Virus record (IMG/VR): IMGVR_UViG_3300020190_000074
Coordinates: 1-52,734 of that record
Origin: a virus
Reading direction: 5' to 3' (one strand)
Length of the DNA: 52,734 nt
The translations under genes and the position numbers were made by a program. Of the stretch, positions 23,638 to 52,734 are shown in pieces. The notes under the pieces were generated by a model. That model was not told the origin of the DNA. It ran no database searches and saw only the letters and a list, made by a program, of their open reading frames with translations. Numbering within the stretch: the first letter of the stretch is position 1; every line of letters starts with the position of its first letter.

Positions 23638-24226
23638 TGTCTAATTTTTTTATAAAATATTCAAAATCAAAAGCAGGACTCAAGTCTGTGGATTCTTCAT
23701 CAATATTTGATCTTGTGATAATCCCACTAAATGTTTCCAGTCTATTTGTTTTTGTATTATGTCCAATACAAATTGGTTCTATATTAAACTTTTTAGATAA
23801 CTTAATACAAAGTTCAGCTGTTTTATCCAACTGTATTTGTGTATAAGGTTCCCAAAAAAAATAGTCTCTCCATTTCTTACTGAACACTTTCTCTTTATAA
23901 ATACTCCCCAACCAGTTAATGTGATGATTTTTTAGTGGTTGTTTTTCTAACCAACCAAGATTTTCCAAAGAAATGATAATAGACTGTTTATCATACACAG
24001 TATTGTTTAACATTTTACCATAATGTTCATCATCCATTGTTTGTAAAACAATACCTTCTTTTGTTACAATGTAATGTGGTAATTTATCATATTTCTTGTT
24101 GTGTCTATTTCTCAATGCTGTTAAATATTCATCAGCATTTCTTGATGTGTGGGTTAAAACTATCTGAATTTTATTTTTTTCTACACCGAAATTATTGTTA
24201 ATTTTTTTATCTAAAATTTCAAACAT
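23630..24226 (-). CDS. N-acetylmuramoyl-L-alanine amidase-like endolysin (Amidase_2 / PGRP fold)
   Basis: The 198-residue protein follows the amidase_2 pattern: IVLTHTSRNADEYLTALRNR with an early His, LPHYIVTKEGIVLQTMDDEH (HY.I..dG), IISLENLGWLEKQPLK, and CIGHNTKTNRLETFSG near the C-terminus for the last zinc-ligand region. These enzymes cut the bond between peptide and N-acetylmuramate. There is no signal peptide, so a holin or membrane permeabilisation is needed. The neighbouring spanin-like genes support a lysis role. The usual K-DPG motif after GH is altered, so the zinc site should be checked. Confidence 0.75.
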   Translation of the reverse strand: MFEILDKKINNNFGVEKNKIQIVLTHTSRNADEYLTALRNRHNKKYDKLPHYIVTKEGIVLQTMDDEHYGKMLNNTVYDKQSIIISLENLGWLEKQPLKNHHINWLGSIYKEKVFSKKWRDYFFWEPYTQIQLDKTAELCIKLSKKFNIEPICIGHNTKTNRLETFSGIITRSNIDEESTDLSPAFDFEYFIKKLDNE

Positions 24227-25268
24227 TCTTTTTATATGTAAGTCTTTTTATACCACCAATATCATTTGTTGTTGTAGTTGTTTCCATAGGAACGTCTATC
24301 CAATAATCAACATTATCAAATAAATCTTCATCATCTACTTGGTCGGTACTTGGTCGGTACTTGGTCGGTACTTGGTCGGTTTCTTCTTCAACTTGGGGGG
24401 TACTTGTGGGTTGGTTGTGGATTGGTTGTGGGGTTGGTAGATTGGTTGATTGAAAATTTTCATCTTCTTTTCTACTGGACTTGAATGCTTGATTTGTTGC
24501 AATAACCAAAGTAATTGCCAATGGATCAAAAACAAAAATCAGAATTAAAATAAAAAGATTTGCAGTTCTTTTTATTTCCCAATCTAAAAGTTCACTTACG
24601 TATTTGATTGCACCAAGTTCACTATTCCCAATGTCTTGTGATTCCATATCTAAAATCTGAACATCAAGTTTTGTTATACTATCGTTATAACCATCGATTC
24701 TTTTTGAAATTGTATCTCTTCTTGATTGTGCTTCTTTTAATTGTCCTTCAAATGATTTTCTATTTGCATTATTTGCTCTTGTAATTAATTGCCCAGTTCT
24801 TTGGTCTACAGTTTGTGTTGTTGTATTTGTAGATAGTCCATCCCTTAATTTTGTAATATCACCATCGAGGGTTATTTTTTCTTTTGTTAATTCGGTTTTT
24901 ATTTCTTCAAATCTTTTCTTTTTAACTTCAACATTCTTTACTTGTTTTTCACTTATTTCAAGTTTTGCAATATTTCCTTGGAATCCGGTACTAAGTAATC
25001 CATAGATACCCAAAGAAGTAATAATTGATAATATTATAAGTGCAATTGTCATATAAATTTTTAAGACACCATATGTTTGTTTCCATTTATCGTGAAGATA
25101 TGTAGCTATTGCTATTTTAGAAATTTCAAGGAAGGATCCCATTATTATTACCGGAATTGCAACACCGACAAACACAATGGACAAACCAACAACACTATAA
25201 TATGCTGCGGTTGCTGATAAACCAAGAGCACAAAATAACATAAACCAGGGTAAAAATTTTTCTTTCAT
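24219..25268 (-). CDS. Multi-span membrane protein with coiled coil and repeat-containing tail
   Basis: The 349-residue protein has three membrane spans in its first 95 residues (FLPWFMLFCALGLSATAAYY; IVFVGVAIPVIIMGSFLEI; IYMTIALIILSIITSLGIYG), a long coiled coil (about 100-215) and a fourth span (NLFILILIFVFDPLAITLVI). The cytoplasmic tail is Pro/Thr/Gln-rich and contains 4 perfect 11-bp DNA repeats (TDQVPTKYRPSTDQV read in three frames). It precedes the amidase by overlap, so it belongs to the lysis or entry module. A GTATTTATAAAC box lies upstream. Copy-number change of the 11-bp unit would shift the frame of the last 30 or so residues. Confidence 0.78.
   Translation of the reverse strand: MKEKFLPWFMLFCALGLSATAAYYSVVGLSIVFVGVAIPVIIMGSFLEISKIAIATYLHDKWKQTYGVLKIYMTIALIILSIITSLGIYGLLSTGFQGNIAKLEISEKQVKNVEVKKKRFEEIKTELTKEKITLDGDITKLRDGLSTNTTTQTVDQRTGQLITRANNANRKSFEGQLKEAQSRRDTISKRIDGYNDSITKLDVQILDMESQDIGNSELGAIKYVSELLDWEIKRTANLFILILIFVFDPLAITLVIATNQAFKSSRKEDENFQSTNLPTPQPIHNQPTSTPQVEEETDQVPTKYRPSTDQVDDEDLFDNVDYWIDVPMETTTTTNDIGGIKRLTYKKNV
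24337..24380 (-). repeat. Four perfect 11-bp tandem repeats inside a coding sequence
   Basis: The unit ACTTGGTCGGT occurs four times in a row at 24337, 24348, 24359 and 24370, without a mismatch. As 11 is not a multiple of 3, gain or loss of one unit shifts the reading frame of the membrane protein's C-terminal tail, the arrangement seen in slipped-strand contingency loci. Confidence 0.92.
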
Positions 25269-29367: not shown

Positions 29368-30546
29368 CTATTTTTTTAAACTGTCAAAGAACTTTTTTGT
29401 CCCTAAATCTCTAATGTTTAAGGCAGCATTTAAATCTCTATTCAAAATTTCACCACAATTTTCACATTTCCAGATTCTATCTTTTAATTCTAAATTTTTA
29501 TTAATTGTCCCACAACAATTACATTTTTTACTTGTTGGTTCAAATCTACCAATTTCAACTAAATATTTTCCACTATTTTTTGTTTTATAACCAATCATAG
29601 TTTTAAATTTACCAAAACCAACATCAATTATACTTCTATTCAATCCAGATTTTTGTTTTACATTTTTACCAGGATTTTCTTTTGTACCTTTACTTGATTT
29701 TGTCATCCCTTTAACATTTAAATCTTCCATACAAATCAAATCATAATTATCTACTAATTTTTTTGATTCGTTATGTAAAAAATTTTCTCTTGTATTAGCT
29801 ACATTTTCATGTATTTTTGAAATGTTTTTTTTTATTTTTTTATAGTTGTTTGACCCTTTTTTTGCTCTTGCTAATTTTCTTTGTAAGACAGTTAGGTGTT
29901 CTTGATTTTTAGTTAAATGTTTTGGATTTTCTATTACTTCGTTATCTGATGTGACAACAAATGCTTTTACCCCCAAATCTATACCAACACTTTTTTTAAC
30001 TTCAACTTTTTTAAAATTATTTGTGTACTCAACCATAATTGAGACATAATATTTATTGTGTTTTTTTGAAATTGTTACGGTTTTGATTTTACCTTCAATA
30101 GGTCTATGATATTTAATTTTAATTAATTTTTCAACCTTTGGTATTTTCAAATAGCCGTCATATGTAATATATAAATTTTTAGAATTTTGCTTTGTACTTG
30201 GTCTTGTTGTAAAACTTTGAGTGGTGTCGGATTCTTTTTTGAATTTTGGGTAACCCCCTTTATTTTTAAAAAAATTTTTATATGCCTTTGATAAGGCCTT
30301 CATTTCATTACAATATATGTTTACATCATATTCGTTTAGAAATGGTGCTTTTACTCTATAATTTTTTATATGATAATTTAATCCAAAATGTGATAAATTT
30401 GATTTACCACCCAACTGATAAATTTGTTTTTCACAATCTAAAGAAACATTATAAACATATCTTCCGGCTTTGAAAGCCCCTTCAAAATATTCTATTTGTT
30501 TCTCTGTTGGGTAAATCCTATATTTATATGCTTTATTTTGTTTCAC
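29368..30546 (-). CDS. TnpB-like compact RuvC nuclease, putative phage miniature Cas12 (type V)
   Basis: The 392-residue protein is a full-length TnpB/OrfB-type nuclease: N-terminal KAYKYRIYPTEKQIEYFEGA, RuvC-I SVGIDLGVKAF (D190), RuvC-II LICMEDLNVKGM (E274), a zinc finger CNCC...CENC (342/345, 361/364) and RuvC-III NRDLNAALNIRDLG (D371). All three catalytic acids are present. TnpB proteins are about 370-420 residues; known Cas12f are usually larger. Here it is followed by a tracr-like RNA and a CRISPR array instead of a transposon end, so it probably uses crRNA guides. The start is GTG at 30546, 4 nt after a promoter -7 box. No tnpA is present. Confidence 0.9.
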   Translation of the reverse strand: MKQNKAYKYRIYPTEKQIEYFEGAFKAGRYVYNVSLDCEKQIYQLGGKSNLSHFGLNYHIKNYRVKAPFLNEYDVNIYCNEMKALSKAYKNFFKNKGGYPKFKKESDTTQSFTTRPSTKQNSKNLYITYDGYLKIPKVEKLIKIKYHRPIEGKIKTVTISKKHNKYYVSIMVEYTNNFKKVEVKKSVGIDLGVKAFVVTSDNEVIENPKHLTKNQEHLTVLQRKLARAKKGSNNYKKIKKNISKIHENVANTRENFLHNESKKLVDNYDLICMEDLNVKGMTKSSKGTKENPGKNVKQKSGLNRSIIDVGFGKFKTMIGYKTKNSGKYLVEIGRFEPTSKKCNCCGTINKNLELKDRIWKCENCGEILNRDLNAALNIRDLGTKKFFDSLKK

Positions 30547-39002: not shown

Positions 39003-39224
39003 ATGCCAATAGACATAACAATTAACGATATTTCTGGACAAACACCTTTTGATATATATGTATGTAACACAGGACAAACTTATTGTGTGTATTCGGCAAC
39101 AATAAATTCTGGTGACTTACCTTACACGTTTGAGGTTCCAATACCATTTATAAATTCTGAAGGTGTTAATTTAAGAATTGTTGATGATAATGATTGTCAG
39201 ATAAATGAAATACTTCTAATATAA
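39003..39224 (+). CDS. Small fibre-associated protein, 73 aa
   Basis: The product (MPIDITINDISGQTPFDIYV) is beta-rich, with the pattern SGxxPF(D/N)IYVC followed by YC, a hydrophobic turn and an acidic loop with Cys. The N-terminal 70 residues of the minus-strand protein at 48557-49060 share this pattern (LSGTPPFNIYVCDATITYCY), so the two are paralogues. The stop overlaps the start of the 721-residue fibre gene (TAATG), so they are coupled. It is probably a small structural unit or a cap for the fibre. A TATATTTATTTAT element precedes the ATG. Confidence 0.75.
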   Translation: MPIDITINDISGQTPFDIYVCNTGQTYCVYSATINSGDLPYTFEVPIPFINSEGVNLRIVDDNDCQINEILLI

Positions 39225-41389
39225 TGGCTTGTATTGAAAATAATTTTTGTATAAATTCTGGTGGTAATTTATTTGATGGACAATATACCACAGATAGTAA
39301 TACTTATAATGGTTTTACATCATATACAGGTGATAGTGTACCATTTTTTATTTATTATTCATTAACAGAAGATAGATGGTGTTTATCAACAAGTTTTGGT
39401 GGTAGTTGTTTACAATTTGGTCCAGTCGGTGTTGGGAGTGATTGTCCTGATTTTGACGAAAGTTTTTTTATTACCGGTGTCTGTATTACAACAACTACAA
39501 CAACATCACCTTGTGATGTTTTTAATTTTGAAGCTATTTTTGATTGTTTGGTTCCAACAACTACAACAACAACTAAGTTACCACCAACAACCACAACAAC
39601 GACAACAATTCCTTTTGATCCTTGTACTGGTGTTTCGGTTAGTGCATCAATTACTGCTTATACAACTACAACTACCACAATTCCAGTAACTACAACCACA
39701 ACAACAGGAGTTATCAGGCCTTGTAATTTTGATGGCATTGTTACTTTCAATACGTTTGACGAATATATGAGATGTGGTAATAGTAAGAAATTTAAAGATT
39801 GTTTAACTGGGTTTGAATATTTTTCAAATGGATTAATCTTCAATGAATCTGGTGACACTTTGATTCAAAATTGGGTTTATAAATCAACAATTAATGGTAT
39901 TTCTACTTGTGTTTCGTTTTTAGGTCTTGTCGATAACATTAGTGGTTCAGATTTAGTTGTGATTAATGAAACATTGGGTTCTGAATTTCAAGGTGCTTGT
40001 TTAGAATGTGTACCAGATTCTACGACAACAACAACGACCAAAGGACCTGCTGACTACTTTGTTGAGTGTGGTGATGGTTTTTGTCCTTTCGGTAATGTAA
40101 ATTTTGGCCCTAGAGACAATCTTTCAACACTATTCAATTCTTGGAATAGATTTGCTCTTTTTGCCCCAAATAAATATCCTGGTTTATCCACATTAACTGG
40201 ATTACAATCTAATGGTATTCTTATAACTAATGATCCATCTTATTATTTTTGGACTGGTAGTACCAATTATTTGGGGGCATTTAATCTTGTAATGACAGAA
40301 GGTGAAAATGTTGGTCCAGTAGCTTCAGATTTTAGTAATGTTGATAAGTTTTATTATAACACGTATATTAATAAAATGATTTTTTCTTACGATGTTGGTG
40401 GAAGTAGTACATATCGATGGTCTACGTTTGACCCAACAGCCAATGTAAGTACCGCTTTAGGTAACCCAACAACAACACAATATTTAACAACTTCATCAAA
40501 TTGGAAAATATCTGGCTTAACAAGTGTCCAATATACTGTCAGTGGAACTAGTAATACCGTTGTGTTAGCACAACAAAAAATACTTGATGCTGGTGGTACT
40601 CCTGAAATGATTCAATGTGTTCAAAATAGTGCTTTTGGAAATGGATTTTATAGTAATTGTGAATACACTAATTATGTACACGAAGTTACTTTAGGTAGTA
40701 CTGATAATGATAATGATAAGATTGGTATTGTTTTAGCAGCTAAAAAAGGTTTAGGTAACAATCCTAAGGTTACTGATATGTTATCTTTAATCTTTAATGG
40801 TACAAATAATCGTGTTAATGTTGATTATAATCCATACCAAGATGTTTATGCGTTTAACAATAATATGGGTTTAACAAGTGTTACGATAATGACTGGAGCA
40901 ACAAATCCATTTGGTGCTGGTAATTATAACGTTAAGGGTCAAGTCAGAATTAAAATTATTAAAACAAATACTACTATTAGTATATATACAACACAACGTA
41001 TGGGTCCATTAGGTATTGTACAGTCTGGAAATCCAAATCCATACACTCTGTTATATCAATTTGACTTAACAGATAAAACTACTTGGAATGCAGCACCTAA
41101 TTATGCTTTGGGTAATGAACTTTTGAAATTCACAGGTGGGACAAGTTTTGGTTATCTGACAACATCACAACGTAAAAGTCAATTTTATGACATTTTATTT
41201 TCGAGCACACAACAACCTTCTGGTATTTTATATAGTAAAACAGTTTCGAATCCTATTTTAGGTAAAGTTTATTCATTTATTGATGTTGATGGTTGTTTCA
41301 TATATAGTGGCAGTACGTTTAATTTTTCAAATTCTGATTTGGTTGATTTAACGATTGAAACTGTTAATAATAGTTGTCAAGATTGTTAA
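39224..41389 (+). CDS. Poly-threonine fibre/adhesin, 721 aa
   Basis: The protein is beta-rich and Gly/Thr/Asn-rich, with several poly-Thr linkers: ITTTTTTSPC, PTTTTTTKLPPTTTTTTTIP, YTTTTTTIPVTTTTTTGVI, TTTTTTKGPAD. Paired cysteines (CLVP, CNFDG, CLTG, CLECV) between linkers suggest small disulfide-stabilised or metal-bound modules. A C-terminal globular lectin-like region follows (IGIVLAAKKGLGNNPKVTDM to STQQPSGILYSKTVSN), ending in a Cys pair QDC. It should be a tail fibre or head decoration that contacts the host. Thr runs are likely sites for O-glycosylation by the nearby transferases. It is followed by a two-way terminator. Confidence 0.82.
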   Translation: MACIENNFCINSGGNLFDGQYTTDSNTYNGFTSYTGDSVPFFIYYSLTEDRWCLSTSFGGSCLQFGPVGVGSDCPDFDESFFITGVCITTTTTTSPCDVFNFEAIFDCLVPTTTTTTKLPPTTTTTTTIPFDPCTGVSVSASITAYTTTTTTIPVTTTTTTGVIRPCNFDGIVTFNTFDEYMRCGNSKKFKDCLTGFEYFSNGLIFNESGDTLIQNWVYKSTINGISTCVSFLGLVDNISGSDLVVINETLGSEFQGACLECVPDSTTTTTTKGPADYFVECGDGFCPFGNVNFGPRDNLSTLFNSWNRFALFAPNKYPGLSTLTGLQSNGILITNDPSYYFWTGSTNYLGAFNLVMTEGENVGPVASDFSNVDKFYYNTYINKMIFSYDVGGSSTYRWSTFDPTANVSTALGNPTTTQYLTTSSNWKISGLTSVQYTVSGTSNTVVLAQQKILDAGGTPEMIQCVQNSAFGNGFYSNCEYTNYVHEVTLGSTDNDNDKIGIVLAAKKGLGNNPKVTDMLSLIFNGTNNRVNVDYNPYQDVYAFNNNMGLTSVTIMTGATNPFGAGNYNVKGQVRIKIIKTNTTISIYTTQRMGPLGIVQSGNPNPYTLLYQFDLTDKTTWNAAPNYALGNELLKFTGGTSFGYLTTSQRKSQFYDILFSSTQQPSGILYSKTVSNPILGKVYSFIDVDGCFIYSGSTFNFSNSDLVDLTIETVNNSCQDC

Positions 41390-41404
41390 AATCACATTAA
41401 AAAA

Positions 41405-41430
41405 AAATATCGTCTAAAAAGACGATATTT
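41405..41430. terminator. Bidirectional hairpin terminator with a third repeat copy nearby
   Basis: AAATATCGTCT (41405-41415), AAAA loop, AGACGATATTT (41420-41430): an 11-bp perfect stem. On the minus strand it is followed by a T-run (TTTTTTTAATG), giving a strong terminator for the gene at 41456. A further AGACGATAT at 41448-41456 can pair in competition. Confidence 0.88.
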
Positions 41431-41455
41431 AAAATTATCATTATTTTAGACGATA

Positions 41456-41773
41456 TTATCTTCTTCTTCTAAGATATCTTGATTCCGTAATTTGTTCTGA
41501 TTCCATACTATCTTGACCCCAATTTTGGTTTGGTCTTTCACTTGCAACACCCATATCGTTTTTTTCACTTCTAATTGCAAATTCCAATTCTTTTAAGTCA
41601 GACATTATTTCATCTGGTGTTCTCGCACCCAATGTACCACCTCTTTCTTCTAAGAAACTTCTTACAAAGTCCATAGCACTTCTTTGTTCCATTTTTTCAT
41701 CTTCAATTTCAAAAATGGTTCTTTTGATTATTCTTGATAAGTCTCTTTCTGTTAATCTGACTATTTTTTTCAT
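41456..41773 (-). CDS. Leader-bearing small protein, 105 aa, likely virion-packaged
   Basis: The N-terminus MKKIVRLTERDLSRIIKR then TIFE ends in I-F-E at residue 22 and is nearly identical in pattern to that of the acidic protein at 8391-9923 (MKKVLKLTESNLIKLIK). The rest is charged and helical, with FLEERGGTLGARTPDEIMSD in the middle and a basic tail (SRYLRRRR). No motif of known function was found. A TATATATTTATAATAAA element lies upstream of the ATG. The size and basic tail suggest a DNA-associated internal protein. Its terminator follows directly. Confidence 0.75.
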   Translation of the reverse strand: MKKIVRLTERDLSRIIKRTIFEIEDEKMEQRSAMDFVRSFLEERGGTLGARTPDEIMSDLKELEFAIRSEKNDMGVASERPNQNWGQDSMESEQITESRYLRRRR

Positions 41774-41816
41774 ATCTTTTTTTATTATAAATATATAGAT
41801 ATTCTAAAAAAATAAT

Positions 41817-42425
41817 TTACTTCCAAATTTCCTTTGAATTCATATACCCTAATACACAGGTGTAGGCATCTGTCTGGTCAAAATTTTCTTTTTTGAGTGT
41901 GTTATTTTTAGTATAACCCCAGGTTATTTGTGGTTCACGTTTTGCAACTTTTTCCCAGATTAACATTTTTTTATCAATGTCTTTTGGTAATCCACCAAAT
42001 AAAACGTATTTACCTTTATCATTTTCTTTAACCAACTCTGGCCAAGCATATTTTCTTGCGTTATACGTTGAAATAAATTCTGGAACAATTCCTAAAATAT
42101 CATAAACTTCTTTACAAATAAAACTATTAAATCTTAGTAGAGTTTGTATTGTATAGATATTATTTGAATTTAATAATGGTTCTTCAATTATTACTTTAAC
42201 AATCCCTAAATTAACATATTGTTTTAGTTTTTCAGCAAAAATTTCTGATTTAAAAATTAACTCTTTTACTTTATCATCATTACCTTTTTCCATTTTTGGT
42301 CTTGGTGAAATATGTGTAAGTTCTAAAAGTTCTCTTCCTTGAATGTCAAATAAAGCCCAACCAATTGTTTTAGTTGATATGTCTAAACCTAAGACTTTTG
42401 GTGAATTTTTAATTTGTTTTCCCAT
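41817..42425 (-). CDS. RuvC-like Holliday-junction resolvase (RNase H fold)
   Basis: The 202-residue protein begins KVLGLDISTKTIGWALFD, the RuvC/RNase-H strand-1 motif with the first catalytic Asp (residue 15), then VKVIIEEPLLNSNNIYTIQT (second acidic site) and a C-terminal FDQTDAYTCVLGY with the last Asp. Length and order match phage RuvC-like resolvases rather than T4 endonuclease VII. It should cut branched DNA before packaging. It stands alone between two structural genes. Its start follows an AATATTATTT stretch. The catalytic set can be read but metal binding is inferred. Confidence 0.83.
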   Translation of the reverse strand: MGKQIKNSPKVLGLDISTKTIGWALFDIQGRELLELTHISPRPKMEKGNDDKVKELIFKSEIFAEKLKQYVNLGIVKVIIEEPLLNSNNIYTIQTLLRFNSFICKEVYDILGIVPEFISTYNARKYAWPELVKENDKGKYVLFGGLPKDIDKKMLIWEKVAKREPQITWGYTKNNTLKKENFDQTDAYTCVLGYMNSKEIWK

Positions 42426-42474
42426 AAATAATATTTTATTAAGATAATAACTTAAAAGGAATAAAACTAAATAA

Positions 42475-45402
42475 TTAGATGTCTATCTTAACTACGTATT
42501 GTTGGATACCTTGTCTTAAAGTCGGTGATTGTAATTTAGACATAACAAGAATATCTTTATTGTCATCAAGTAGCGCAATTTCAGTGACATACGATTTTGT
42601 ACCTAGTGTCCAGCTTGGATTTGTTGAAACTTGGAATTCACTTGAACTTAGATTTATTTTATATTTCATTTCATAAATTGTTGCTTGAATATCTGTTTCG
42701 AAAGACCCATAAAAATAGTATTCATCACCAAAATTTAATGATTGTCCGGTATAGCCAATCGGTGTTAAACTAATATAATCATCCAAGTTGTAATATGGTG
42801 CTGAATCATAGTTATCTGGAGAAATAATAAATGTTGTCCCAGTTAACGAACTTTGAGTTATAAAACCATCTATGAAACTATTTTGGATTTGTGTTGTAAA
42901 ATCTATTTTTTTCCACATTGCCGGATTGGGTCTTTGGCCTGTTTGTACTTTTTGAACGAGGATTTCAAATTCATCACCAAAAAATCCATTGGGTGTAATA
43001 CAGGGTTCACAATTTGGTAAATAATTTGTTGTTGTAGTTGTTGTCATTGGAAATATAGTTGTGGTTGTTGTTAAACATCCACCACATTCATCAACCAAAT
43101 CAATAATCAAATCACCAGTTGATTGAATACCAGTAGTTGAACAAACTACAGTTCCAGTGTTTCCTGGTAATGTAAGTGGTGATGTTTTTGTTTCATCACA
43201 ACAAGGTGTAAAAATAATTTTTGTACTTCCAGTTAATTCTGTGTTAGTAATTTGATATCTACCACAAAATGGATTAGTTGTTGTTGTGGTTGTTGAACAT
43301 CCACCACATTCATCAACCAAATCAATAATCAAATCACCAGTTGATTGAATACCAGTAGTTGAACAAACTACAGTTCCAGTGTTTCCTGGTAATGTAAGTG
43401 GTGATGTTTTTGTTTCATCACAACAAGGTGTAAAAATAATTTTTGTACTTCCAGTTAATTCTGTGTTAGTAATTTGATATCTACCACAAAATGGATTAGT
43501 TGTTGTTGTGGTTGTAATTGGTTGTACGGTATATGGTTGTACTAAACAGTTAAAATCACCACCAAATCTAACGGCAACATTTTTAGATACGTCAGGACTA
43601 CATTCGTTATTATTACCTTTAATAGATGAATAATAATTACAATGTAATGAATTTGTAAAACAATATGTGTTATTAATTCTATATGTAACAAACAAAGTTT
43701 GTGAATCACCAGTTAATATTCCTTGTGATGTTGTTGTTGTATCACAAGTATTTGGTGTTATCAAAGAAAGTTGTGGTGCTGGTAATGTCCAATTTCTATT
43801 TGATTTGTAAGACATTGCAGCAATAATTTCTTCATCATCAATGATAATTAATTTACTATCTGGAAACACCTTACCAATTCTACTTGGTAATCCATCTGAA
43901 TTAGGATTTGTGTCCCACAAATGATAATACCTAATACCAGGTTGGTTCATTCCTTCATTTTTGGTAGATTGGATATAATGTGGTTTGAACAATTCCTTAT
44001 CTTCAAATCCTGGTGGATCAACCCAGAACGTTTGACCGTTACAACAATTTGGGTTCTTGTGCCACATCAACCAAGGAATATGTAATTTAAAGTTTCTTGC
44101 TTGTCCAGTTGTATTGTCTGGATTTGTTGGGTCATAAGGTTCTAATGCAAATTTTTCACCATAAAAGAAATCAATCGTTTGATTTGTGTAATGAATTATT
44201 GCAATTGCTTTTTGTTCTTCTGGTTTTACTTGTACAATTTCATCAAAAGAATTATAATAATAGGTATAACTTGTATCACTTTGACCTTTACTTGAATTAT
44301 AACCAAAATATTCTTTACTTCCGATATAATCTATTGAACCAAATTGTGTGTAGTCTTTAAATTGACTTGGTATTAGTCCAGCAGGATTTTCAGTCCAAGG
44401 AATGTTCATATTCCAAACTTTAACATCAAATTGGTCTGTATTACAAATAGATTCAAAATCAATAACTTGTTCACCCCAATGTGGCATAGGTGTTATACTA
44501 TCGTATAATTGTGTCATCGTCGATGGATATATAATTGTTCTTGAATAACAATCAACTGGGTAACAAGTATAGTTTGGTACATTTCTATCAACAGTAATAG
44601 TATTAAGACAAACATCAACAATCTTATATGTTAACATAATAGTACAACTTTGTACTGGCATAAAACATTCTGGAACTGGGGGGAGAGGACATTGTGGACT
44701 TGGTGTTGGTGTCAAACACGGAGTTTTTGACGGTGTTGGTGTAGGTGTTGGTGATAAACAAGGTATAAGTGTTGTTGTTGTAGTTGTAGAAGTTGTAGTT
44801 GTTGTTCCGGTAGGTGTTGGTGTGGGTTTTGGTAAATTTATACATTCACAATTACAATCAGCTTTACCATCAAAAAATATAGTTATAATATCACCAATTT
44901 GTGGTTTTACTGTATTTGGTGTATTACATCCAGAATAAATAAGTGTAATTTGATTTGTACCATTAAGTGTTGTCATATCAACAACATAGTTACCAGTTAA
45001 AGCGTATTGATTACCGGTTAGAACTTCCCAATTCACTGTGGTTGCTGTTGTAATTCCACCAAAAAAACCTCTAAGTGGTGCTCTATTAAACACGGAATCT
45101 ATTTGTGAATCCATAAATGGAATACCATATGTATTCTGTTGGTTTGAATCAACATAATATGGGTATTTAACGTATTGTCTATTTGATTGTGGTACTCCAG
45201 TCGTGTTTTGACTATTAAAACCTGGTTCTAAAACAAAACTATTTGATTGGTTATATGTTTGTGGTAATTTATCGTATGAAACTTCACTATCTCCAATTTG
45301 GAAATAAGATATTTTAAAATTACCTTGTGATAATTTTTGTCTTCCAACGTCAGTTATTCTTGTGTTAACTAAACCTGATGTATTTTTAATTATGTATGCC
45401 AT
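42475..45402 (-). CDS. Giant fibre/adhesin, 975 aa, with Thr/Pro linkers and a duplicated module
   Basis: The N-terminus (MAYIIKNTSGLVNTRITDVG) is typical of phage baseplate-attached fibre proteins. Residues about 195-245 are a Pro/Thr linker (TPTPTGTTTTTSTTTTTTLI, then PTPTPTPSKTPC). A large globular part follows, then two identical 74-residue modules joined by TTTTTTNPFCGRYQITNTEL and ending DLVDECGGC, then another poly-Thr linker and a C-terminal beta domain. Module DNA is identical over 222 bp, so the duplication is recent. Cysteine pairs within each module could form disulfides. It is probably the receptor-binding fibre. Function by homology is not shown. Confidence 0.83.
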   Translation of the reverse strand: MAYIIKNTSGLVNTRITDVGRQKLSQGNFKISYFQIGDSEVSYDKLPQTYNQSNSFVLEPGFNSQNTTGVPQSNRQYVKYPYYVDSNQQNTYGIPFMDSQIDSVFNRAPLRGFFGGITTATTVNWEVLTGNQYALTGNYVVDMTTLNGTNQITLIYSGCNTPNTVKPQIGDIITIFFDGKADCNCECINLPKPTPTPTGTTTTTSTTTTTTLIPCLSPTPTPTPSKTPCLTPTPSPQCPLPPVPECFMPVQSCTIMLTYKIVDVCLNTITVDRNVPNYTCYPVDCYSRTIIYPSTMTQLYDSITPMPHWGEQVIDFESICNTDQFDVKVWNMNIPWTENPAGLIPSQFKDYTQFGSIDYIGSKEYFGYNSSKGQSDTSYTYYYNSFDEIVQVKPEEQKAIAIIHYTNQTIDFFYGEKFALEPYDPTNPDNTTGQARNFKLHIPWLMWHKNPNCCNGQTFWVDPPGFEDKELFKPHYIQSTKNEGMNQPGIRYYHLWDTNPNSDGLPSRIGKVFPDSKLIIIDDEEIIAAMSYKSNRNWTLPAPQLSLITPNTCDTTTTSQGILTGDSQTLFVTYRINNTYCFTNSLHCNYYSSIKGNNNECSPDVSKNVAVRFGGDFNCLVQPYTVQPITTTTTTNPFCGRYQITNTELTGSTKIIFTPCCDETKTSPLTLPGNTGTVVCSTTGIQSTGDLIIDLVDECGGCSTTTTTTNPFCGRYQITNTELTGSTKIIFTPCCDETKTSPLTLPGNTGTVVCSTTGIQSTGDLIIDLVDECGGCLTTTTTIFPMTTTTTTNYLPNCEPCITPNGFFGDEFEILVQKVQTGQRPNPAMWKKIDFTTQIQNSFIDGFITQSSLTGTTFIISPDNYDSAPYYNLDDYISLTPIGYTGQSLNFGDEYYFYGSFETDIQATIYEMKYKINLSSSEFQVSTNPSWTLGTKSYVTEIALLDDNKDILVMSKLQSPTLRQGIQQYVVKIDI
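43074..43517 (-). repeat. Two identical 222-bp tandem repeats in the fibre gene
   Basis: 43074-43295 and 43296-43517 are identical base for base by eye over 222 bp, giving two copies of the 74-residue module. The period is a multiple of three, so copy number can change without breaking the frame. Exact identity, including synonymous positions, points to a recent duplication or ongoing gene conversion. Confidence 0.92.
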
Positions 45403-45440
45403 CTATTTTATAAATATTTCTAAAAACTAAATTTATATTT

Positions 45441-47504
45441 TTAATTTGGTTTAATTGGGTTTACTACCTGAACATCACAACATTTACAATTGTTGACAGT
45501 TGGCCTTCCTACGATATATAGATTAAAATCTCTATTAGCACCGCGACATAATCCGACTGGTAAATTGTTTATAATGTCAGTATATGAACCAGTTATTGTT
45601 TGTCCACCACTTATTGTTAATTGTTTTGTGTAAAGTTTTATTTGTTGATTTTGTAATGGTACAGGTACTATACAATTAATGTTCAATGCTGGTTGACTAT
45701 TTGTTATTATTGGTATTCCCATATTACCTAATCCACCATCAAATGTGACTATATTATCTAATGTTGGGGTCGGTGTTATATTTGGTGGATAATAATTAAA
45801 TTGAGAATATTGTTCAATCGAAAAAGTAATTGTTTGTGTTGGTGCAAGGTTTATTGATGGTTGTATTTGGAATGTATTTGAAATATCATCAATTGTTAAT
45901 GTCAAAACAAAAGTTTGTGGATTTGTTTGTGTTAATGTGACCGATGATGGTGTTGATAAATTACCCAAACTATCTTTTACAACAACAATATAGCTTACAG
46001 CATTTAGATTAGAAAAAGTGGATAGAGTACTAAACGTTGTTCCATTATTTATTGAATATTGATAAGGTGGTAGACCACCATATGCTTGTATTGTTATACT
46101 TCCTTTTGTATCACAAATCAAATTGTTTTGTGTTATATTTACACTTACTTCTTTGTAAGAAGTACAAGTACCAGTAGTCACTGTAATATTTATTATACTA
46201 GGATTACCAAGTCCTTGCCAACCAATTATAGGCGGTGTTGGTGTATTGTTATTAATAATACTACCAAAAACAGAACTTCCAGAAACAACCCACTGACTTG
46301 TGTAACCAGTATTAAAAAACATAAAATATTTTTCGTCGTCTGATAACCAACTTTGGTTACCATTTGTAATATTATAAGGCTCAAATTGTATTTGTTCAAA
46401 AATAACAGCCCCTAATTTTGAAGAACTTCTTTTTTTAATAGTCATACACAAATCACCATAAACTGGTAATGGTCTTATTGTGGTTGTTGTGGTAGTTGTT
46501 GGCGTTTCAGCAGTTAAGACACAAGTTGTATTTGCCGTAAAGTCACCATAATAATCAATAACAGTCGCACTATAACTTCCTACATTCAAATTATAAATTA
46601 ATGGGGAAATACTACCAATATCCCATAAAATTGTATATGGTGATGTGCCACCAGTTATTATCAATGTTGCAGCACCATCAAATGATTTTATTGATGAAGG
46701 GTGTGTTACCAAACATTCAACTTCCATAGGAAATATTGTAAGTACGTCACATTCATTTCTAGGTTGTATTGTTATTGGTGTAGAACAAGAACAACTTTCT
46801 TCTAAGTTAATTTCATAACCATAAGTTTCAACACAACTTTGTACTCCAATGTATTTTACTTCATAACATTGTTGTGGAATTGGTAGTGGATCAGTTATTG
46901 TTAGTAGTATTGAATTGTTTGTGTGCCCAGAAAGGATTGGGTTTGCACTCGTAAATGTTGGTACACTACCATCACATGCCGAAATTTCATAACAATCCGT
47001 AGCACAAGGATTTTCTTCAACACAAGTCCTACAACCCAAATCACCGAAAACATTTGGATTTTTAAATATTGGATAATAATTCGGTTGTATTCCCAACTTT
47101 ATTAATTTTTTGTCGTAAACATAAAAACAACCAGAATAAGTTTGTCCACTTAGTGAAGAAGGAATGTAGTTATCACAATAAATAGAATCATCTAGATTTA
47201 GATAATCGTCATTAGCAAGAATTGTTATGTATTGGTTATCAATACAACAAGCACTTAAAAAATAACTTGAATTTGGTATTACAATTTTGTCTTTTTTGAA
47301 ATTTGATGTATTGCCACTTATTGGAAATAATCCACAAAAATTTACTATTGCACTTTCTTGTGGTTCAAAAATTTCTGAAACAGTATTACCAGAGCAATCA
47401 ATAAAAGTTAGTGTTTCGGTTGTGGTACCAGTATTTACAATACCAGTAACTTTACAAGTTGTAAAACAATTGAAAACAAGTGGGGGAAAATTAATTCTAG
47501 GCAT
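45441..47504 (-). CDS. Fibre/adhesin, 687 aa, with SprB-like repeats
   Basis: The protein has many Cys-rich small modules in the first 260 residues, a poly-Thr linker (PTTTTTTTIRPLP), and at least two SprB-type repeats: GGTSPYTILWDIGSISPLIY followed by NLNVGSYSATVIDYYGD, and YGGLPPYQYSINNGTTFSTL followed by AVSYIVVVKDSLGN. SprB repeats are known from gliding-motility adhesins of Flavobacteria. Presence in a phage fibre suggests host-derived modules that bind the same surfaces. It follows the glycosyltransferase gene at 47517 with a 12-base gap on the same strand. A TTATTTATTAGT element lies before the ATG. Receptor-binding is inferred. Confidence 0.82.
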   Translation of the reverse strand: MPRINFPPLVFNCFTTCKVTGIVNTGTTTETLTFIDCSGNTVSEIFEPQESAIVNFCGLFPISGNTSNFKKDKIVIPNSSYFLSACCIDNQYITILANDDYLNLDDSIYCDNYIPSSLSGQTYSGCFYVYDKKLIKLGIQPNYYPIFKNPNVFGDLGCRTCVEENPCATDCYEISACDGSVPTFTSANPILSGHTNNSILLTITDPLPIPQQCYEVKYIGVQSCVETYGYEINLEESCSCSTPITIQPRNECDVLTIFPMEVECLVTHPSSIKSFDGAATLIITGGTSPYTILWDIGSISPLIYNLNVGSYSATVIDYYGDFTANTTCVLTAETPTTTTTTTIRPLPVYGDLCMTIKKRSSSKLGAVIFEQIQFEPYNITNGNQSWLSDDEKYFMFFNTGYTSQWVVSGSSVFGSIINNNTPTPPIIGWQGLGNPSIINITVTTGTCTSYKEVSVNITQNNLICDTKGSITIQAYGGLPPYQYSINNGTTFSTLSTFSNLNAVSYIVVVKDSLGNLSTPSSVTLTQTNPQTFVLTLTIDDISNTFQIQPSINLAPTQTITFSIEQYSQFNYYPPNITPTPTLDNIVTFDGGLGNMGIPIITNSQPALNINCIVPVPLQNQQIKLYTKQLTISGGQTITGSYTDIINNLPVGLCRGANRDFNLYIVGRPTVNNCKCCDVQVVNPIKPN

Positions 47505-47516
47505 ACTAATAAATAA

Positions 47517-48497
47517 TTAGTTTTTTGTTTTTTCAATGTAAGATTTCATAACATCAATATATTTTATTGTCGTACTATTCACATCTATATAATCAAAGTG
47601 ATTTTTATTTTCTTTTAATTTTTCTATTGGGTCAATATTAATGTAATCGCCTTTATAAAACTTTGTTGATTTTAAAGTATCAGTAACACCTGCCATATGT
47701 AATATTGGCATTCTTTCATATTTATCAACATTATCTGTGGCCCAAGAAAAATCTAATTCTTTTGTTATTTCTGTTTTATAATTATTTAGCCATAGATTCC
47801 ATAGAAGCGACCACATTTCAGCTGTCCAAAATTGTATTTGACCTGGGTTAATTGGAAACCTTCTTTGATAGTCTAACATTTGGTTATATAGTGGTGTACA
47901 ATCATTATAGACTTTTTCCCAAAATTTATAATCAGTATTTTTAATCAGATATTGACCACCACCGGAATTTTTTTGATTTTCCTTTATTATATCAACATTG
48001 ATTCCTACAACTTCAGCCATTTCTTTTATTAGTTGTCCTTTTTCTGATGATGGGTGTCTTGATTCATAATTATTACAACAATACATAATATAATCATAAC
48101 CTATATATCCGATTGTATCAGATAGATAAGAAATATTATTCTTTATAAGTTTTTCAAAATCTGGTAATATTCTAAAAATAATATCAGCGTCGTGTAAAAA
48201 TATATTTTTTCCTAGTTTTGGGAATTCTTTTAACCATTGTGCAATAAGATATGGTTTTATACTTGGAATGTATGTTTTTACATCTCTATTGTCTTCGTAA
48301 AAATGTAAATTAATTCCTAAATTTTTTAACTTAATTGCACCTTCACTCGGTTCTTTTGCTCCGTGAACAAGTGCTAGAATTACGTGAATTCGATTCGGGT
48401 TAATTCCTTTTTCAATAAAATTATGAACATACAATTTTATTTGCCAATGAAAATAGGGAACATCAGGTTGTGCACTTAGAAATACAATGTCTTTCAT
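47517..48497 (-). CDS. GT-A-fold glycosyltransferase, HPAT-like
   Basis: The 326-residue protein starts MKDIVFLSAQPDVPYFHWQI with the first Rossmann strand and carries NIFLHDADIIFRILPDFEKL, a D-x-D (DAD) metal and nucleotide-sugar site near residue 100. GGGQYLIKNTDYKFWEKVYN and QFWTAEMWSLLWNLWLNNYK follow, in the order known from plant hydroxyproline arabinosyl- and serine galactosyltransferases. It likely transfers a sugar onto a peptide or lipid acceptor in the cytoplasm. It ends 12 bases before the SprB-like fibre gene and is probably co-expressed with it, which fits fibre glycosylation. The sugar donor is unknown. Confidence 0.78.
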   Translation of the reverse strand: MKDIVFLSAQPDVPYFHWQIKLYVHNFIEKGINPNRIHVILALVHGAKEPSEGAIKLKNLGINLHFYEDNRDVKTYIPSIKPYLIAQWLKEFPKLGKNIFLHDADIIFRILPDFEKLIKNNISYLSDTIGYIGYDYIMYCCNNYESRHPSSEKGQLIKEMAEVVGINVDIIKENQKNSGGGQYLIKNTDYKFWEKVYNDCTPLYNQMLDYQRRFPINPGQIQFWTAEMWSLLWNLWLNNYKTEITKELDFSWATDNVDKYERMPILHMAGVTDTLKSTKFYKGDYINIDPIEKLKENKNHFDYIDVNSTTIKYIDVMKSYIEKTKN

Positions 48498-48556
48498 ATG
48501 AAAAATATATCTTAAAAATAGATAAAGTGAATTAATTTATGATACTTGTGTTACAG

Positions 48557-49060
48557 TTATAATAACAGAAGGAATTTGAGGTCCATAAAGGGGTGCTGGG
48601 TCATATCGTAAAAAGGTATATTTATTTGAGGTCCATTGAATTTCAAAATATTCTCCACCCCTAAAACTTTCAACAAAGATTCCCCATTAGCCGAATCGAA
48701 AGTTGGCCCATTGACTAATGTTGTGGATAAAGAATTATATGATAAATCGTAACATGTATTCCCTGATGTAGAATATGATGGTGTAAATGACGCGTCTTGG
48801 AAAAGGAAGATATGAAAGTCTTCAAATTCCTTACCATAAATTTCCTGACAGTTCAATAGATAAATATTTTCACAATTATTGAAGTCAATAACTTTTAAAA
48901 TAATTGGTGTTGTTGAGTCTAATGGGGACGGAACGTTAAAGATGTAAGGCGCTCCAACAATAGTTTGTACAAAATAACAATATGTTATGGTCGCATCACA
49001 TACGTATATATTAAACGGTGGTGTACCAGAAAGACTAACTATGTTTACTTGATTTGGCAT
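48557..49060 (-). CDS. Fibre protein with LamG-like module, apparent -1 frameshift near its end
   Basis: The first 70 residues (MPNQVNIVSLSGTPPFNIYV to CENIYLLNC) are paralogous to the 73-residue protein at 39003. A LamG/lectin-like part follows (CYDLSYNSLSTTLVNGPTFD, LKFNGPQINIPF). The frame then ends in an odd string, YDMTQHPFMDLKFLLLL. In the -1 frame the DNA reads LRYDPAPLYGPQIPSVIITV, which fits the fibre style and repeats GPQI, and stays open to about 48540. A five-T run lies at the switch point. So the gene is frame-shifted by programmed slippage, recent mutation or sequence error. Confidence 0.72.
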   Translation of the reverse strand: MPNQVNIVSLSGTPPFNIYVCDATITYCYFVQTIVGAPYIFNVPSPLDSTTPIILKVIDFNNCENIYLLNCQEIYGKEFEDFHIFLFQDASFTPSYSTSGNTCYDLSYNSLSTTLVNGPTFDSANGESLLKVLGVENILKFNGPQINIPFYDMTQHPFMDLKFLLLL

Positions 49061-49091
49061 CTACAATCGGAACTATTCATATAGATAAATA

Positions 49092-50030
49092 TTACTCACC
49101 GACTATTTCAATAACCTTTTCATATACTTGTAGTACGGAGGGGTGACACTCAAACTTTTCTTTTTTTTCTAAACAACCTACTAAAGATGGTATTCCATGA
49201 ATAGATCCCCACTCTCTAACGCCATATTTCATATCAGATGCACAATGTAATCCGCATTCACCTCTAACATAATGAAACTTATAATCTTGACTTCCTTTTC
49301 TATACGGAGCTCTAAACTCAGGGTTAATTGAACTACCCAATTGAAGGATTTCACAATCTGTTGTTCCTGCCAAATGCAAAAGACCAGAGTCCATTGTAAT
49401 AAAACAAGAACATTTATTCAACAAGTGCCAAGTTTGATCTAAACTTGTTTGATTCATTAGGTTGTACCCAAGTTGGATTGGAAAATTAAATACGGGTTTT
49501 TGAACCATAGAATTTCCAATCTCAGATGAGTCTTTACCAACAGAAATTACAGATATCCCCTTTTCGTTCAATAGTTGAGTCAATATCTTCCAACTTTTGG
49601 CTGGCCATGTTCTTGAGTCCCAATTTTGAACAGGGTGAATTAAAACAAATTTTTTAGGTAAATCTGATAATATAACATCATCAGCAATATAATCCATTTT
49701 CATTTCATTGTTAGTTAACATAAACCCAAGATTGATTGCATGAAATTGTTTAATGTCTATCACGTTATGTTTATTACAAACACCATTAGGTTTGTATAAA
49801 ATATCAAAGGTAGAAAATACTTCATAATCATTTTTTACACGATCAAGTAAGTCAGGAGTATATTGAAAATTGTTTTCTACATAAGGTAAATTAGTAAAAA
49901 TTTCAGGGTGATGTGATATAACAGATATTTTTTTATTGTAGGCCTCACTCAATTTCCTAATTACAGGTGTTGCACACAAAGTATCGCCAAGAGCACGACA
50001 ACCACTAATGTCTACACACATTTCTTTCAT
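49092..50030 (-). CDS. GT9-family heptosyltransferase-like glycosyltransferase
   Basis: The 312-residue protein has the ADP-heptose:LPS heptosyltransferase fold: GCRALGDTLCATPVIRKLSE (acceptor side), KFVLIHPVQNWDSRTWPAKS (nucleotide-sugar binding), VISVGKDSSEIG and CFITMDSGLLHLAGTTDCEI. A C-terminal cluster of cysteines (CGLHCASDM, GCLEKKEKFECHPS) is unusual for GT9 but like that of autotransporter heptosyltransferases. It could add a sugar to host LPS, changing the receptor, or to the phage fibres. It sits between a fibre gene and the long GT fusion in opposite orientation. Codon choice seems less AT-biased than in most of the window. Confidence 0.84.
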   Translation of the reverse strand: MKEMCVDISGCRALGDTLCATPVIRKLSEAYNKKISVISHHPEIFTNLPYVENNFQYTPDLLDRVKNDYEVFSTFDILYKPNGVCNKHNVIDIKQFHAINLGFMLTNNEMKMDYIADDVILSDLPKKFVLIHPVQNWDSRTWPAKSWKILTQLLNEKGISVISVGKDSSEIGNSMVQKPVFNFPIQLGYNLMNQTSLDQTWHLLNKCSCFITMDSGLLHLAGTTDCEILQLGSSINPEFRAPYRKGSQDYKFHYVRGECGLHCASDMKYGVREWGSIHGIPSLVGCLEKKEKFECHPSVLQVYEKVIEIVGE

Positions 50031-50081
50031 CTAATAATATTAAGCCCTTCACAAATAAATTCAATAAATTATTTTTCTATT

Positions 50082-52734
50082 ATGAAAAAAATTAGGTTGT
50101 GTTATGTGACACCCCACCTCTCAACAGGAGGAATGCCACAATTTGTTTTGAAAAGAATAGAATCACTTCAAAAATACCAAGATCAAATTGAAATTTTTTT
50201 AATTGAGTACTCTCAATTTAGCACAATTTATTTGGTACAAAGAAATAAAATTATTGATCTATTAGGTAATGATCATTTTTTTTCGTTGGGTGGATTCACA
50301 GAAGTTGATAAAAAATATGAATTGATTAAAATTTTAATAGATTTACAAATCGATATTGTTCACGTCGAAGAAATACCTGAAGGGTTCGAAAGTTTTAACA
50401 AAATTCCATTAGATTTATTGAACTCTTTTTATGACAATAACAGAACATGGAAAATAGTTGAAACGTGTCATAATGTTTGGTATAACTCTGAAAACAAAAA
50501 GTTATATCCCGATGCTTACTCATTTGTAACCCCATATCATTTCGAGACCTTCAAAGACAACACCCCTTTTAAAGAATTACACGTATATCCATATGAGGAT
50601 AAAGTGACGACAATTCTTGAAGAGTTGGGAATCCCTTTTAATCATCATAGAATCCCGTTGTTACAAAAAATTAAGACAAGGGAAAAGTTGGGTATAGATC
50701 TCACAAAGACACACATTTTAAATGTTGGTCTGTGGACCTCAGGAAAAAACCAAAGTGAGGGTGTCGAGGTTGCAAGATTGATTGAAAAAACACACTCTGA
50801 TTTACACTTCCATTTTATTGGTAATCAGGCGGAAAATTTCGAATCTTATTGGAAACCTGTCATGGAAAATTTACCAAGTAACGTAACGGTGTGGGGAGAA
50901 AGAAATGATGTAGATTCTTTTATGATGGCATGTGATGTCATGATGTTCAACTCCAAATGGGAATGTAATCCACTTGTAGTTAGAGAAGCAATAAACTACG
51001 GATTGAAAATTCTTGCCAGAAATTTATCACACTATCTTGGTATGTTCGATAAATATATCACACCTATCAGTTCCGATGATCCACTCGAAATATCAAAACA
51101 ACTTATAGATCTTGTGAATAATGATGCATTTTACGAATTAGAAAATCAGAAAGATTTTGGTGAAGAACTTTTAAAATTTTACAGTAAGGTAATTAATATG
51201 GAAAAAAATACAAATAAAAAAATAGAAACCAATTATACATTCAATCAACATTTTGTTGTTAATCCTTTTTTAGAAATATTAGGAGAAGGTGAAAACAAAT
51301 TAGACGTTAAGTTATTCGATGATGATACACTAATTTATCAAAACAATATAAAATTAAATAGTTGGATAAAATTAAATCGTGAGTATTATACCAAATGGAG
51401 AACCGAGGTTAGTGAGAATGGAAAAATTATTTACGAAAACGTTTTGGATTTAGAAAACAGGAGAGTTTACATTTCTTTTGGTTCAAAATCATTGGGCGAC
51501 ACTTTGGCTTGGATGCCGTATTGTGAAGAGTTTCGATTAAAACACAACTGTAAACTAATTGTTTCAACTTTTATGAACTACCTGTTTAAAGATCAATACC
51601 CCGAGATAGAGTTTGTAGAACCTGGACAAATTGTTTTAAATATTTATGCCCAATATAGGTTGGGTTGGTATTACAATGAAGATGGTAAGTTTAATACTAA
51701 TATCCATAAAAATGATTTCAAAAGACAAACACTACAAAAAACCGCAACCGATATTCTTGGTTTGGATTACCAAGAAATTAGACCCCAATTGAAATTACCT
51801 GTCGTTGAAAAGAAGAGAAAAGTAGGTATTGGATTTCACTCAACCGCACAGGCGAAATATTGGAACAATGAAGGTGCATGGCAAGAAGTTGTTGATTATC
51901 TCAATTCCCATGGGTATGAATGTATGATCTATTCTAAGGAGGGTGATGGTTACATGAATAACAGATACCCACATAATGTGAAAATATTTAAAGGAGGAAA
52001 TTTACAAGAAGTAATAAATGATCTTAGTACTTGTGAATTTTTTATTGGTCTCGGGTCTGGATTAAGTTGGCTAGCTTGGGCATGTGAGTTACCTTTAATT
52101 TTAATTTCAGGTTTCAGTGAAAAGTGGGCGGAAACAAAATTAGACACCTACCGAGTAATAAATCAAAATGTATGTCATGGTTGTTTTAACCATTATAGAT
52201 TAGATGCCGGTGATTGGAATTGGTGTCCTCTTCATAAAGGTACGGAAAAACAGTTTGAATGTACAAAAACAATAACACCAGAAATGGTTATTTTTGAAAT
52301 AAACAAAATAATAAATAAAAAATTAATGAACGAAAATTTTAACGACCGTTCATTTGATTGGGGAAAGAAAAGTGATTGGTATGTAAATGCTGCAATCAAA
52401 GAAATATTTGAGGATAATATCTATGAAAGAATTTTTCAGGTTGAGGAGGGGGATGTTGTTGTAGATTTGGGGGCTTCTTTAGGGCCGTTTACATATTCAA
52501 TATTACCAAAGAATCCTAAACAATGTTTTGTTGTAGAACCTTTATCCTATCATGTTGAGGTATTGAAAAAAAATGTTGGTCGAGAAAATGTAAAAATTAT
52601 ACAGGGAGCAATTACAGATAAAAAGAAAATAGAAATCAGTTGGGACAACATTTCTGAAAGTGTACCAACATTTAGTTTTAAAGAATTCTTAGATGACAAT
52701 AACATTGAAAAAATCGATTTTTTGAAATGTGATT
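50082..52734 (+). CDS. Partial three-domain fusion: GT4-like + autotransporter heptosyltransferase-like + FkbM-like methyltransferase
   Basis: An open frame starts at ATG 50082 and continues for 884 codons without a stop to the window edge. Residues 1-370 are GT-B glycosyltransferase (RLCYVTPHLSTGGMPQFVLK; HILNVGLWTSGKNQSEGVEV; CDVMMFNSKWECNPLVVREA, like GT4). Residues about 400-745 match the autotransporter (TibC/BAHT-type) heptosyltransferase: VYISFGSKSLGDTLAWMPY, FIGLGSGLSWLAWACELPL and CHGCF...WCPLH...FEC, the metal-binding cysteines. From about 760 an FkbM-type methyltransferase begins (VEEGDVVVDLGASLGPFTYS; QCFVVEPLSYHVEVLKKN). All act on sugars or proteins in the cytoplasm. The end is not seen. 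Codon use is less AT-rich than the neighbours, suggesting transfer. Confidence 0.9.
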   Translation, partial: MKKIRLCYVTPHLSTGGMPQFVLKRIESLQKYQDQIEIFLIEYSQFSTIYLVQRNKIIDLLGNDHFFSLGGFTEVDKKYELIKILIDLQIDIVHVEEIPEGFESFNKIPLDLLNSFYDNNRTWKIVETCHNVWYNSENKKLYPDAYSFVTPYHFETFKDNTPFKELHVYPYEDKVTTILEELGIPFNHHRIPLLQKIKTREKLGIDLTKTHILNVGLWTSGKNQSEGVEVARLIEKTHSDLHFHFIGNQAENFESYWKPVMENLPSNVTVWGERNDVDSFMMACDVMMFNSKWECNPLVVREAINYGLKILARNLSHYLGMFDKYITPISSDDPLEISKQLIDLVNNDAFYELENQKDFGEELLKFYSKVINMEKNTNKKIETNYTFNQHFVVNPFLEILGEGENKLDVKLFDDDTLIYQNNIKLNSWIKLNREYYTKWRTEVSENGKIIYENVLDLENRRVYISFGSKSLGDTLAWMPYCEEFRLKHNCKLIVSTFMNYLFKDQYPEIEFVEPGQIVLNIYAQYRLGWYYNEDGKFNTNIHKNDFKRQTLQKTATDILGLDYQEIRPQLKLPVVEKKRKVGIGFHSTAQAKYWNNEGAWQEVVDYLNSHGYECMIYSKEGDGYMNNRYPHNVKIFKGGNLQEVINDLSTCEFFIGLGSGLSWLAWACELPLILISGFSEKWAETKLDTYRVINQNVCHGCFNHYRLDAGDWNWCPLHKGTEKQFECTKTITPEMVIFEINKIINKKLMNENFNDRSFDWGKKSDWYVNAAIKEIFEDNIYERIFQVEEGDVVVDLGASLGPFTYSILPKNPKQCFVVEPLSYHVEVLKKNVGRENVKIIQGAITDKKKIEISWDNISESVPTFSFKEFLDDNNIEKIDFLKCD

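Follow-up and report, generated by a model that had tools for sequence, protein, structure and literature searches.

Virion glycosylation by phage enzymes is already known. In mucin-type O-glycosylation, the acceptors are dense threonines placed in flexible, exposed segments. In mycobacteriophage virions, as far as the work of Freeman et al. 2023 is cited in PMC12619734, glycans are carried at the C-termini of the capsid and tail-tube subunits. The enzymes TibC and AAH (PMC4358343, PDB 4RAP) modify serine, not threonine. The locus described here resembles the mycobacteriophage case, to the extent that the citing paper describes it, in that the glycosyltransferases are encoded by the phage and in that the proteins glycosylated there at their C-termini, capsid and tail tube, are those bearing poly-threonine tails in phages of Firmicutes. 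Homology between the key enzyme of our locus, a member of the family phrog_4417, and the glycosyltransferases of mycobacteriophage Che8 was nevertheless rejected, as Che8 gp108–110 did not match the phrog_4417 profile; no threonine run was found at the C-termini of the Che8 capsid and tail-tube proteins either. The phrog_4417 enzyme with its poly-threonine is therefore similar in kind to the mycobacteriophage system but a distinct solution.

The DNA analysed (the window) is an entire virus record of 52.7 kb, a genome fragment; the genes at its end recur unchanged on contigs of 73 and 31 kb, and the same fibre operon is present in relatives of up to about 290 kb. The nearest relatives of the window primase, by coverage and score, are those of uncultured and Flavobacterium phages, and fibre C contains SprB-like repeats (PF13573), so a host belonging to the Bacteroidota is likely from the sequence. 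On the minus strand, from 50030 down to 41817, there follow one another a GT9 glycosyltransferase gene (49092–50030), a 167-aa ORF (48557–49060), the phrog_4417 glycosyltransferase gene (47517–48497), fibre C directly after it (687 aa, 45441–47504), fibre B (975 aa, 42475–45402; 165 relatives in IMG/VR) and a RuvC-like resolvase gene (41817–42425), which matches the RuvC-like PHROG and whose place inside the fibre operon is conserved; one 105-aa ORF stands after it. Fibre A (721 aa, 39224–41389, plus strand) is convergent with this operon, and a large fusion gene diverges from it at 50082. Three glycosyltransferase genes (at 47517, 49092 and 50082) stand beside the fibres, as the initial annotation had it. 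The 167-aa ORF combines a short fibre-resembling piece with an N-terminal domain like the 73-aa protein encoded at 39003–39224 (plus strand) ahead of fibre A; in relatives a full threonine-rich fibre is often found at its position, and it is probably a remnant. Proteins of 70–100 aa forming one family stand directly ahead of several fibre genes (39003–39224 in the window and 12591–12887 in contig L003, for example) and are possibly fibre assembly partners. A transposase gene (phrog_506, 29368–30546) lies among the replication genes of the window, adjoining an SbcC-like gene.

Runs of five to seven threonines occur in all three fibres. There are 13 runs of at least five threonines (six in fibre A, six in fibre B and one in fibre C), where residue shuffling leads one to expect 0.04, 0.06 and 0.02, respectively, or about 0.1 in total, and the earlier observation of such runs in three fibre genes is thereby borne out. 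Fibre A has five runs of six or seven threonines within 39488–39706 (39488–39505, 39557–39607 and 39662–39706) and a further run of six at 40022–40039, all on the plus strand. On the minus strand, fibre B has a T5-S-T6 run at 44770–44805, runs of six at 43498–43515 and at 43276–43293, the latter flanked by two near-identical NPFCGRY domains, and runs of five and six within 43027–43071; the single run of fibre C, of seven, is at 46479–46499. A structure model of fibre B was of too poor quality to be used. Microsatellite or codon slippage as the source of the runs was ruled out by mixed synonymous codons: in runs of at least four threonines the codons ACA, ACT, ACC and ACG are used 60, 15, 9 and 3 times, which is the background ratio of the window, and 372 of 374 runs in the wider clade and related loci use at least two synonymous codons. 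Selection therefore acts on the protein. An additional TTTTT run is found far from the fibre operon, in a 349-aa ORF at 24219–25268.

The product of the gene at 47517–48497 (326 aa, minus strand) matches the phrog_4417 profile over residues 6–318 with an E value of 9e-67; the family is annotated as being of unknown function. Its AlphaFold (AF2) model is a confident GT-A fold (pLDDT 96.1), and the Foldseek matches listed are GT-A enzymes, the nearest solved structures being WbbM, UGGT, blood-group transferases and glycogenin. A DxD motif, D103-A-D105 (48183–48191, minus strand), presumed to form the metal and nucleotide-sugar site, is invariant together with other residues across 51 sequences, the relatives being 29–76% identical to the window protein, and an HxAGV motif is also conserved. 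By its predicted fold and invariant DxD the protein is a GT-A glycosyltransferase. The retaining GT-A families GT8, GT24 and GT6 (glycogenin, UGGT and the blood-group enzymes GTA/GTB) share this fold and motif and are among the best Foldseek matches, but the TM scores against solved enzymes are only 0.37–0.46, at 7–14% identity, and by sequence the enzyme belongs to none of them; the sugar donor and the linkage are therefore not readable from the fold. The initial label of this gene as HPAT-like was abandoned, since neither Pfam nor NCBIfam gave the protein a match at E 0.1 and no HPAT is among the listed structure matches.

The enzyme is spread far beyond the window. Relatives were found by tblastn in 74 phage records, mainly phages of Lactobacillus, Enterococcus, Staphylococcus and Lactococcus, and the family has members in Enterococcus phage phiFL1A, Lactococcus phage 1706, Lactobacillus phages and the Staphylococcus Sextaecvirus. 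In IMG/VR loci of freshwater-type jumbo phages carrying the enzyme, runs of at least five threonines are present in 76/80, and the next gene after the enzyme is a fibre C homologue in 78/80; some of the four loci lacking any such run are short contigs. In phages of Gram-positive hosts, the enzyme gene mostly stands directly downstream of a gene for a capsid, decoration-like or tail-tube protein, and in Firmicutes phages and prophages the run sits as a tail at the C-terminus of capsid, connector and tail-tube proteins. The tail tubes of phiFL1A and 1706 end in TTTTTSTTTTTTSSTTTTTTTQASSK and TTTTTTTTTTHHD, respectively, and the capsid of 4995_1 ends in TTTTTTKPTTTTTTTQA. All 10 complete phage records tested contain (ACN)6 runs, many of them at the 3' ends of head or tail genes. 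The bacterial-genome loci (Firmicutes prophages), whose enzymes are 28–38% identical, contain an ORF with at least five consecutive threonines in 37 of 38 cases; the gene immediately upstream of the enzyme has a poly-threonine end in 33/38, compared to 43/485 for other genes, and the last run typically stops no more than a few residues from the C-terminus. The phrog_4417 glycosyltransferase of phiFL2B (GQ478085.1 gp49; L179, 8995–9903) bears the GenBank label 'major tail protein'; this label (compare phiFL1A) is probably an error taken over from the adjoining gene.

The pairing was followed through loss as well as presence. In 80 viral loci sharing one capsid family (71–100% identity), the capsid has a poly-threonine tail in 4/4 with the enzyme and in 0/76 without it, 60 of the 76 extending for 5 kb or more downstream. 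Non-redundant fibre B homologues have runs in 39 of 42 loci with the enzyme, three of the 42 having no run of at least five despite it, and in none of 14 without it (Fisher p 1e-10, relatedness ignored). On the fibre tree, the state of the enzyme changed at least five times, and in the supported independent contrasts the runs changed in the same way in 2.8 of 3 on average and never in the opposite way, three well-supported contrasts (five over the entire tree) being too few for significance in a sign test. Comparison of L076 with L085 shows the runs to be either PTPTPTPS linkers or absent in the sister without the enzyme; the run comparable to the T5-S-T6 of fibre B is such a Pro-Thr linker. 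Between L060 and L087, a segment with three runs is absent with both flanks intact, and runs comparable to that at 43498–43515 are missing from relatives without the enzyme. Threonine runs and enzyme are thus gained and lost together.

Starting from this observed pairing and joint loss, and from the predicted fold and conserved DxD motif of the enzyme, we propose that the core of the locus is very probably a two-part virion glycosylation module, consisting of threonine runs on virion proteins and the adjoining phrog_4417 enzyme. The runs, which link fibre domains here and form C-terminal tails in Firmicutes phages, are the likely glycan acceptor. The enzyme would be cytoplasmic, would presumably be produced together with the late gene products and, using a nucleotide-sugar of the host as donor, would glycosylate the threonines of the runs before assembly, yielding mucin-like, hydrated and extended segments on the particle; the benefit would probably lie in stiffer linkers and in shielding of the particle. 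The likeness to mucin-type glycosylation lies in the threonine-rich segments, and Pfam Mucin weakly matches the tail protein of iLp84. The phage system differs from it in that its enzyme is cytoplasmic and convincingly matches no solved structure by sequence, and in that its threonine is homopolymeric instead of forming mixed repeats. We further consider it rather probable that homopolymeric threonine serves as a portable glycosylation tag in phages of hosts from several phyla, the enzyme recognising the run itself and glycosylating it densely, so that an in-frame (ACN)n tail would suffice to give any virion protein a sugar coat. The initial annotation had suggested that the phage decorates its own fibres. 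Glycosylation of its own virion proteins does appear very probable, with poly-threonine as the likely acceptor, but the key enzyme is the product at 47517, not the heptosyltransferase fusion. The proposed grouping of all transferases with the runs holds for the 47517 enzyme, which tracks them, and not for the remaining genes, which are accessory.

These remaining genes form a second cassette. The gene at 49092–50030 (minus strand) was correctly recognised at the outset as GT9-like (PF01075, 61 bits, with a match to 1psw and relatives in L004, L006, L010 and L012); against the LPS heptosyltransferase equivalogs RfaF/RfaC it scores 42 bits (cut-off 134.6) and 38 bits (cut-off 569), below both. 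The fusion gene on the plus strand encodes a GT4 domain (50082–51251, PF00534), a domain of the Aah/TibC heptosyltransferase type (51264–52313, residues 400–743) and the beginning of an FkbM-type methyltransferase domain (52344–52734, weak TIGR01444 match), which is cut at the window end; the gene is complete, at 972 aa, in the identical contig L003. The heptosyltransferase-like assignment was sound: the domain scores 281.9 bits against TIGR04414 (cut-off 200), matches 4rap with an E value of 6e-64, and has D473, K592, C698, C701, C715 and C727 in the places of TibC D110, K230 and the four iron-binding cysteines, the catalytic aspartate and the four iron-finger cysteines being aligned and invariant in nine phage sequences. 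The expectation that this family acts on Ser/Thr stands for serine and fails for threonine in TibC and AAH (PMC4358343). The phage domain differs from TibC and AAH in its fusion to GT4 and FkbM and in its surroundings, since no autotransporter substrate was seen in the window locus and its neighbour, past the window end at 10272–12557 of L003, is a collagen-like fibre of 761 aa with Gly-Thr-Ser/Asn repeats and 21% threonine. TibC-like relatives occur in viral contigs more than 570 times. A collagen-like ORF lies within 10 kb in 34/56 non-redundant TibC loci, compared to 7/64 loci anchored on the phrog_4417 enzyme and 1/66 anchored on fibre B; the link is one-sided, as only 4 of the 70 short loci recovered by a search anchored on collagen-like ORFs have TibC. 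Hardly any relative of the fibre operon has this cassette. TibC as the poly-threonine enzyme is not supported, since it tracks collagen-like fibres, is absent from 80 loci found by threonine runs and modifies serine, not threonine (PMC4358343). The fusion and the GT9 gene are a separate accessory cassette, more likely acting on the collagen-like Ser/Thr fibre because TibC-like genes track such fibres; its GT4, GT9 and FkbM components possibly extend or methylate the cassette glycan.

The alternative that survives best is an addition to, and compatible with, the two-part module: the TibC-like cassette may also elongate or cap the poly-threonine glycan begun by the phrog_4417 enzyme. The two modules stand back to back in the window and in L530, a second locus with both, and sugars are often capped by FkbM methyltransferases. 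Only one of the 56 TibC loci, that of the window itself, has phrog_4417, however, and together with the serine specificity, the frequency of collagen-like fibres and the lack of TibC in the loci found by threonine runs, this makes such a role unlikely, if quite conceivable. A less probable reading is that the runs are simply unmodified flexible linkers, the enzyme acting on other sites or virion proteins. In a reverse search with (ACN)9 alone, in which loci with an in-frame run of at least seven threonines were kept (n = 53), the enzyme was absent from 44, so that most poly-threonine loci do without it, and Pro-Thr linkers stand in where it is missing. But in the other nine loci the enzyme always directly adjoins the run-bearing gene, the runs vanish with it at homologous positions, and the co-occurrence is near-strict on proteins as unrelated as fibres, capsid, connector, tail tube and small decoration-like proteins.

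The initial annotation had offered two alternatives to fibre glycosylation, and both fare worse still. Were the transferases to alter LPS or wall polymers on the surface of the host, thereby blocking superinfection, the relationship of the GT9 and heptosyltransferase-like domains to LPS core enzymes and the occurrence of TibC-like genes within multi-glycosyltransferase clusters on some contigs would be accounted for. LPS modification fits poorly, though, because the same enzyme family is found in virion operons of phages whose Gram-positive hosts have no LPS; phrog_4417 lies inside the virion operon in phages of Gram-positive and, probably, Gram-negative hosts alike, it comes and goes with the runs, and the TibC family, all of whose key residues are kept here, is one of protein glycosyltransferases, which leaves this reading highly improbable. 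Glycosylation of modified bases of phage DNA deserves scarcely any credence: many phages do this and the window has two DNA methyltransferases, yet a scan of proteins from this genome fragment, many of whose ORFs are unmatched, recognised no genes for base hypermodification, the enzyme occurs beside capsid or tail genes in temperate phages of 36–40 kb, and its association with the threonine runs would go unexplained.

The two-part module, if correct, gives a testable function to a family annotated as unknown in such well-known phages as phiFL1A, 1706, the Lactobacillus phages and Sextaecvirus, and allows glycoproteins to be predicted from sequence in many virions. Immune recognition, stability and adsorption can depend on virion sugars. 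Poly-threonine tails, otherwise low-complexity noise in appearance, would gain an explanation. A short acceptor that can be built into a gene, paired with a single enzyme, would make a useful tool for cytoplasmic O-glycosylation. No published account of the poly-threonine tag, the phrog_4417 module or its spread across host phyla was found in the mostly non-subscription literature searched, a weak sign of novelty.

Several observations lie at the margins of this family. The lone non-phage relative, at 5995–6858 of L228 in an Arachidicoccus MAG, is surrounded by a LanC-like protein, a C39 peptidase-ABC transporter and another glycosyltransferase; this peptide-maturation context is consistent with a polypeptide acceptor, and the cluster is a possible glycosylated-peptide pathway in Bacteroidota. 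A group of phages (L231, L241, L267 and L290) has C-terminal poly-threonine on small virion-like proteins with no phrog_4417 in the locus, and may represent an independent invention; in L290 a GT4 glycosyltransferase is encoded nearby. A highly diverged relative of the enzyme (Foldseek TM 0.71, 19% identity) occurs in phage LP65, where no run of five threonines lies beside it. But the two adjoining LP65 proteins end in TETQTQTQ repeats, which counts in favour of the module, and one of them carries an annotation as a virion protein detected by mass spectrometry.
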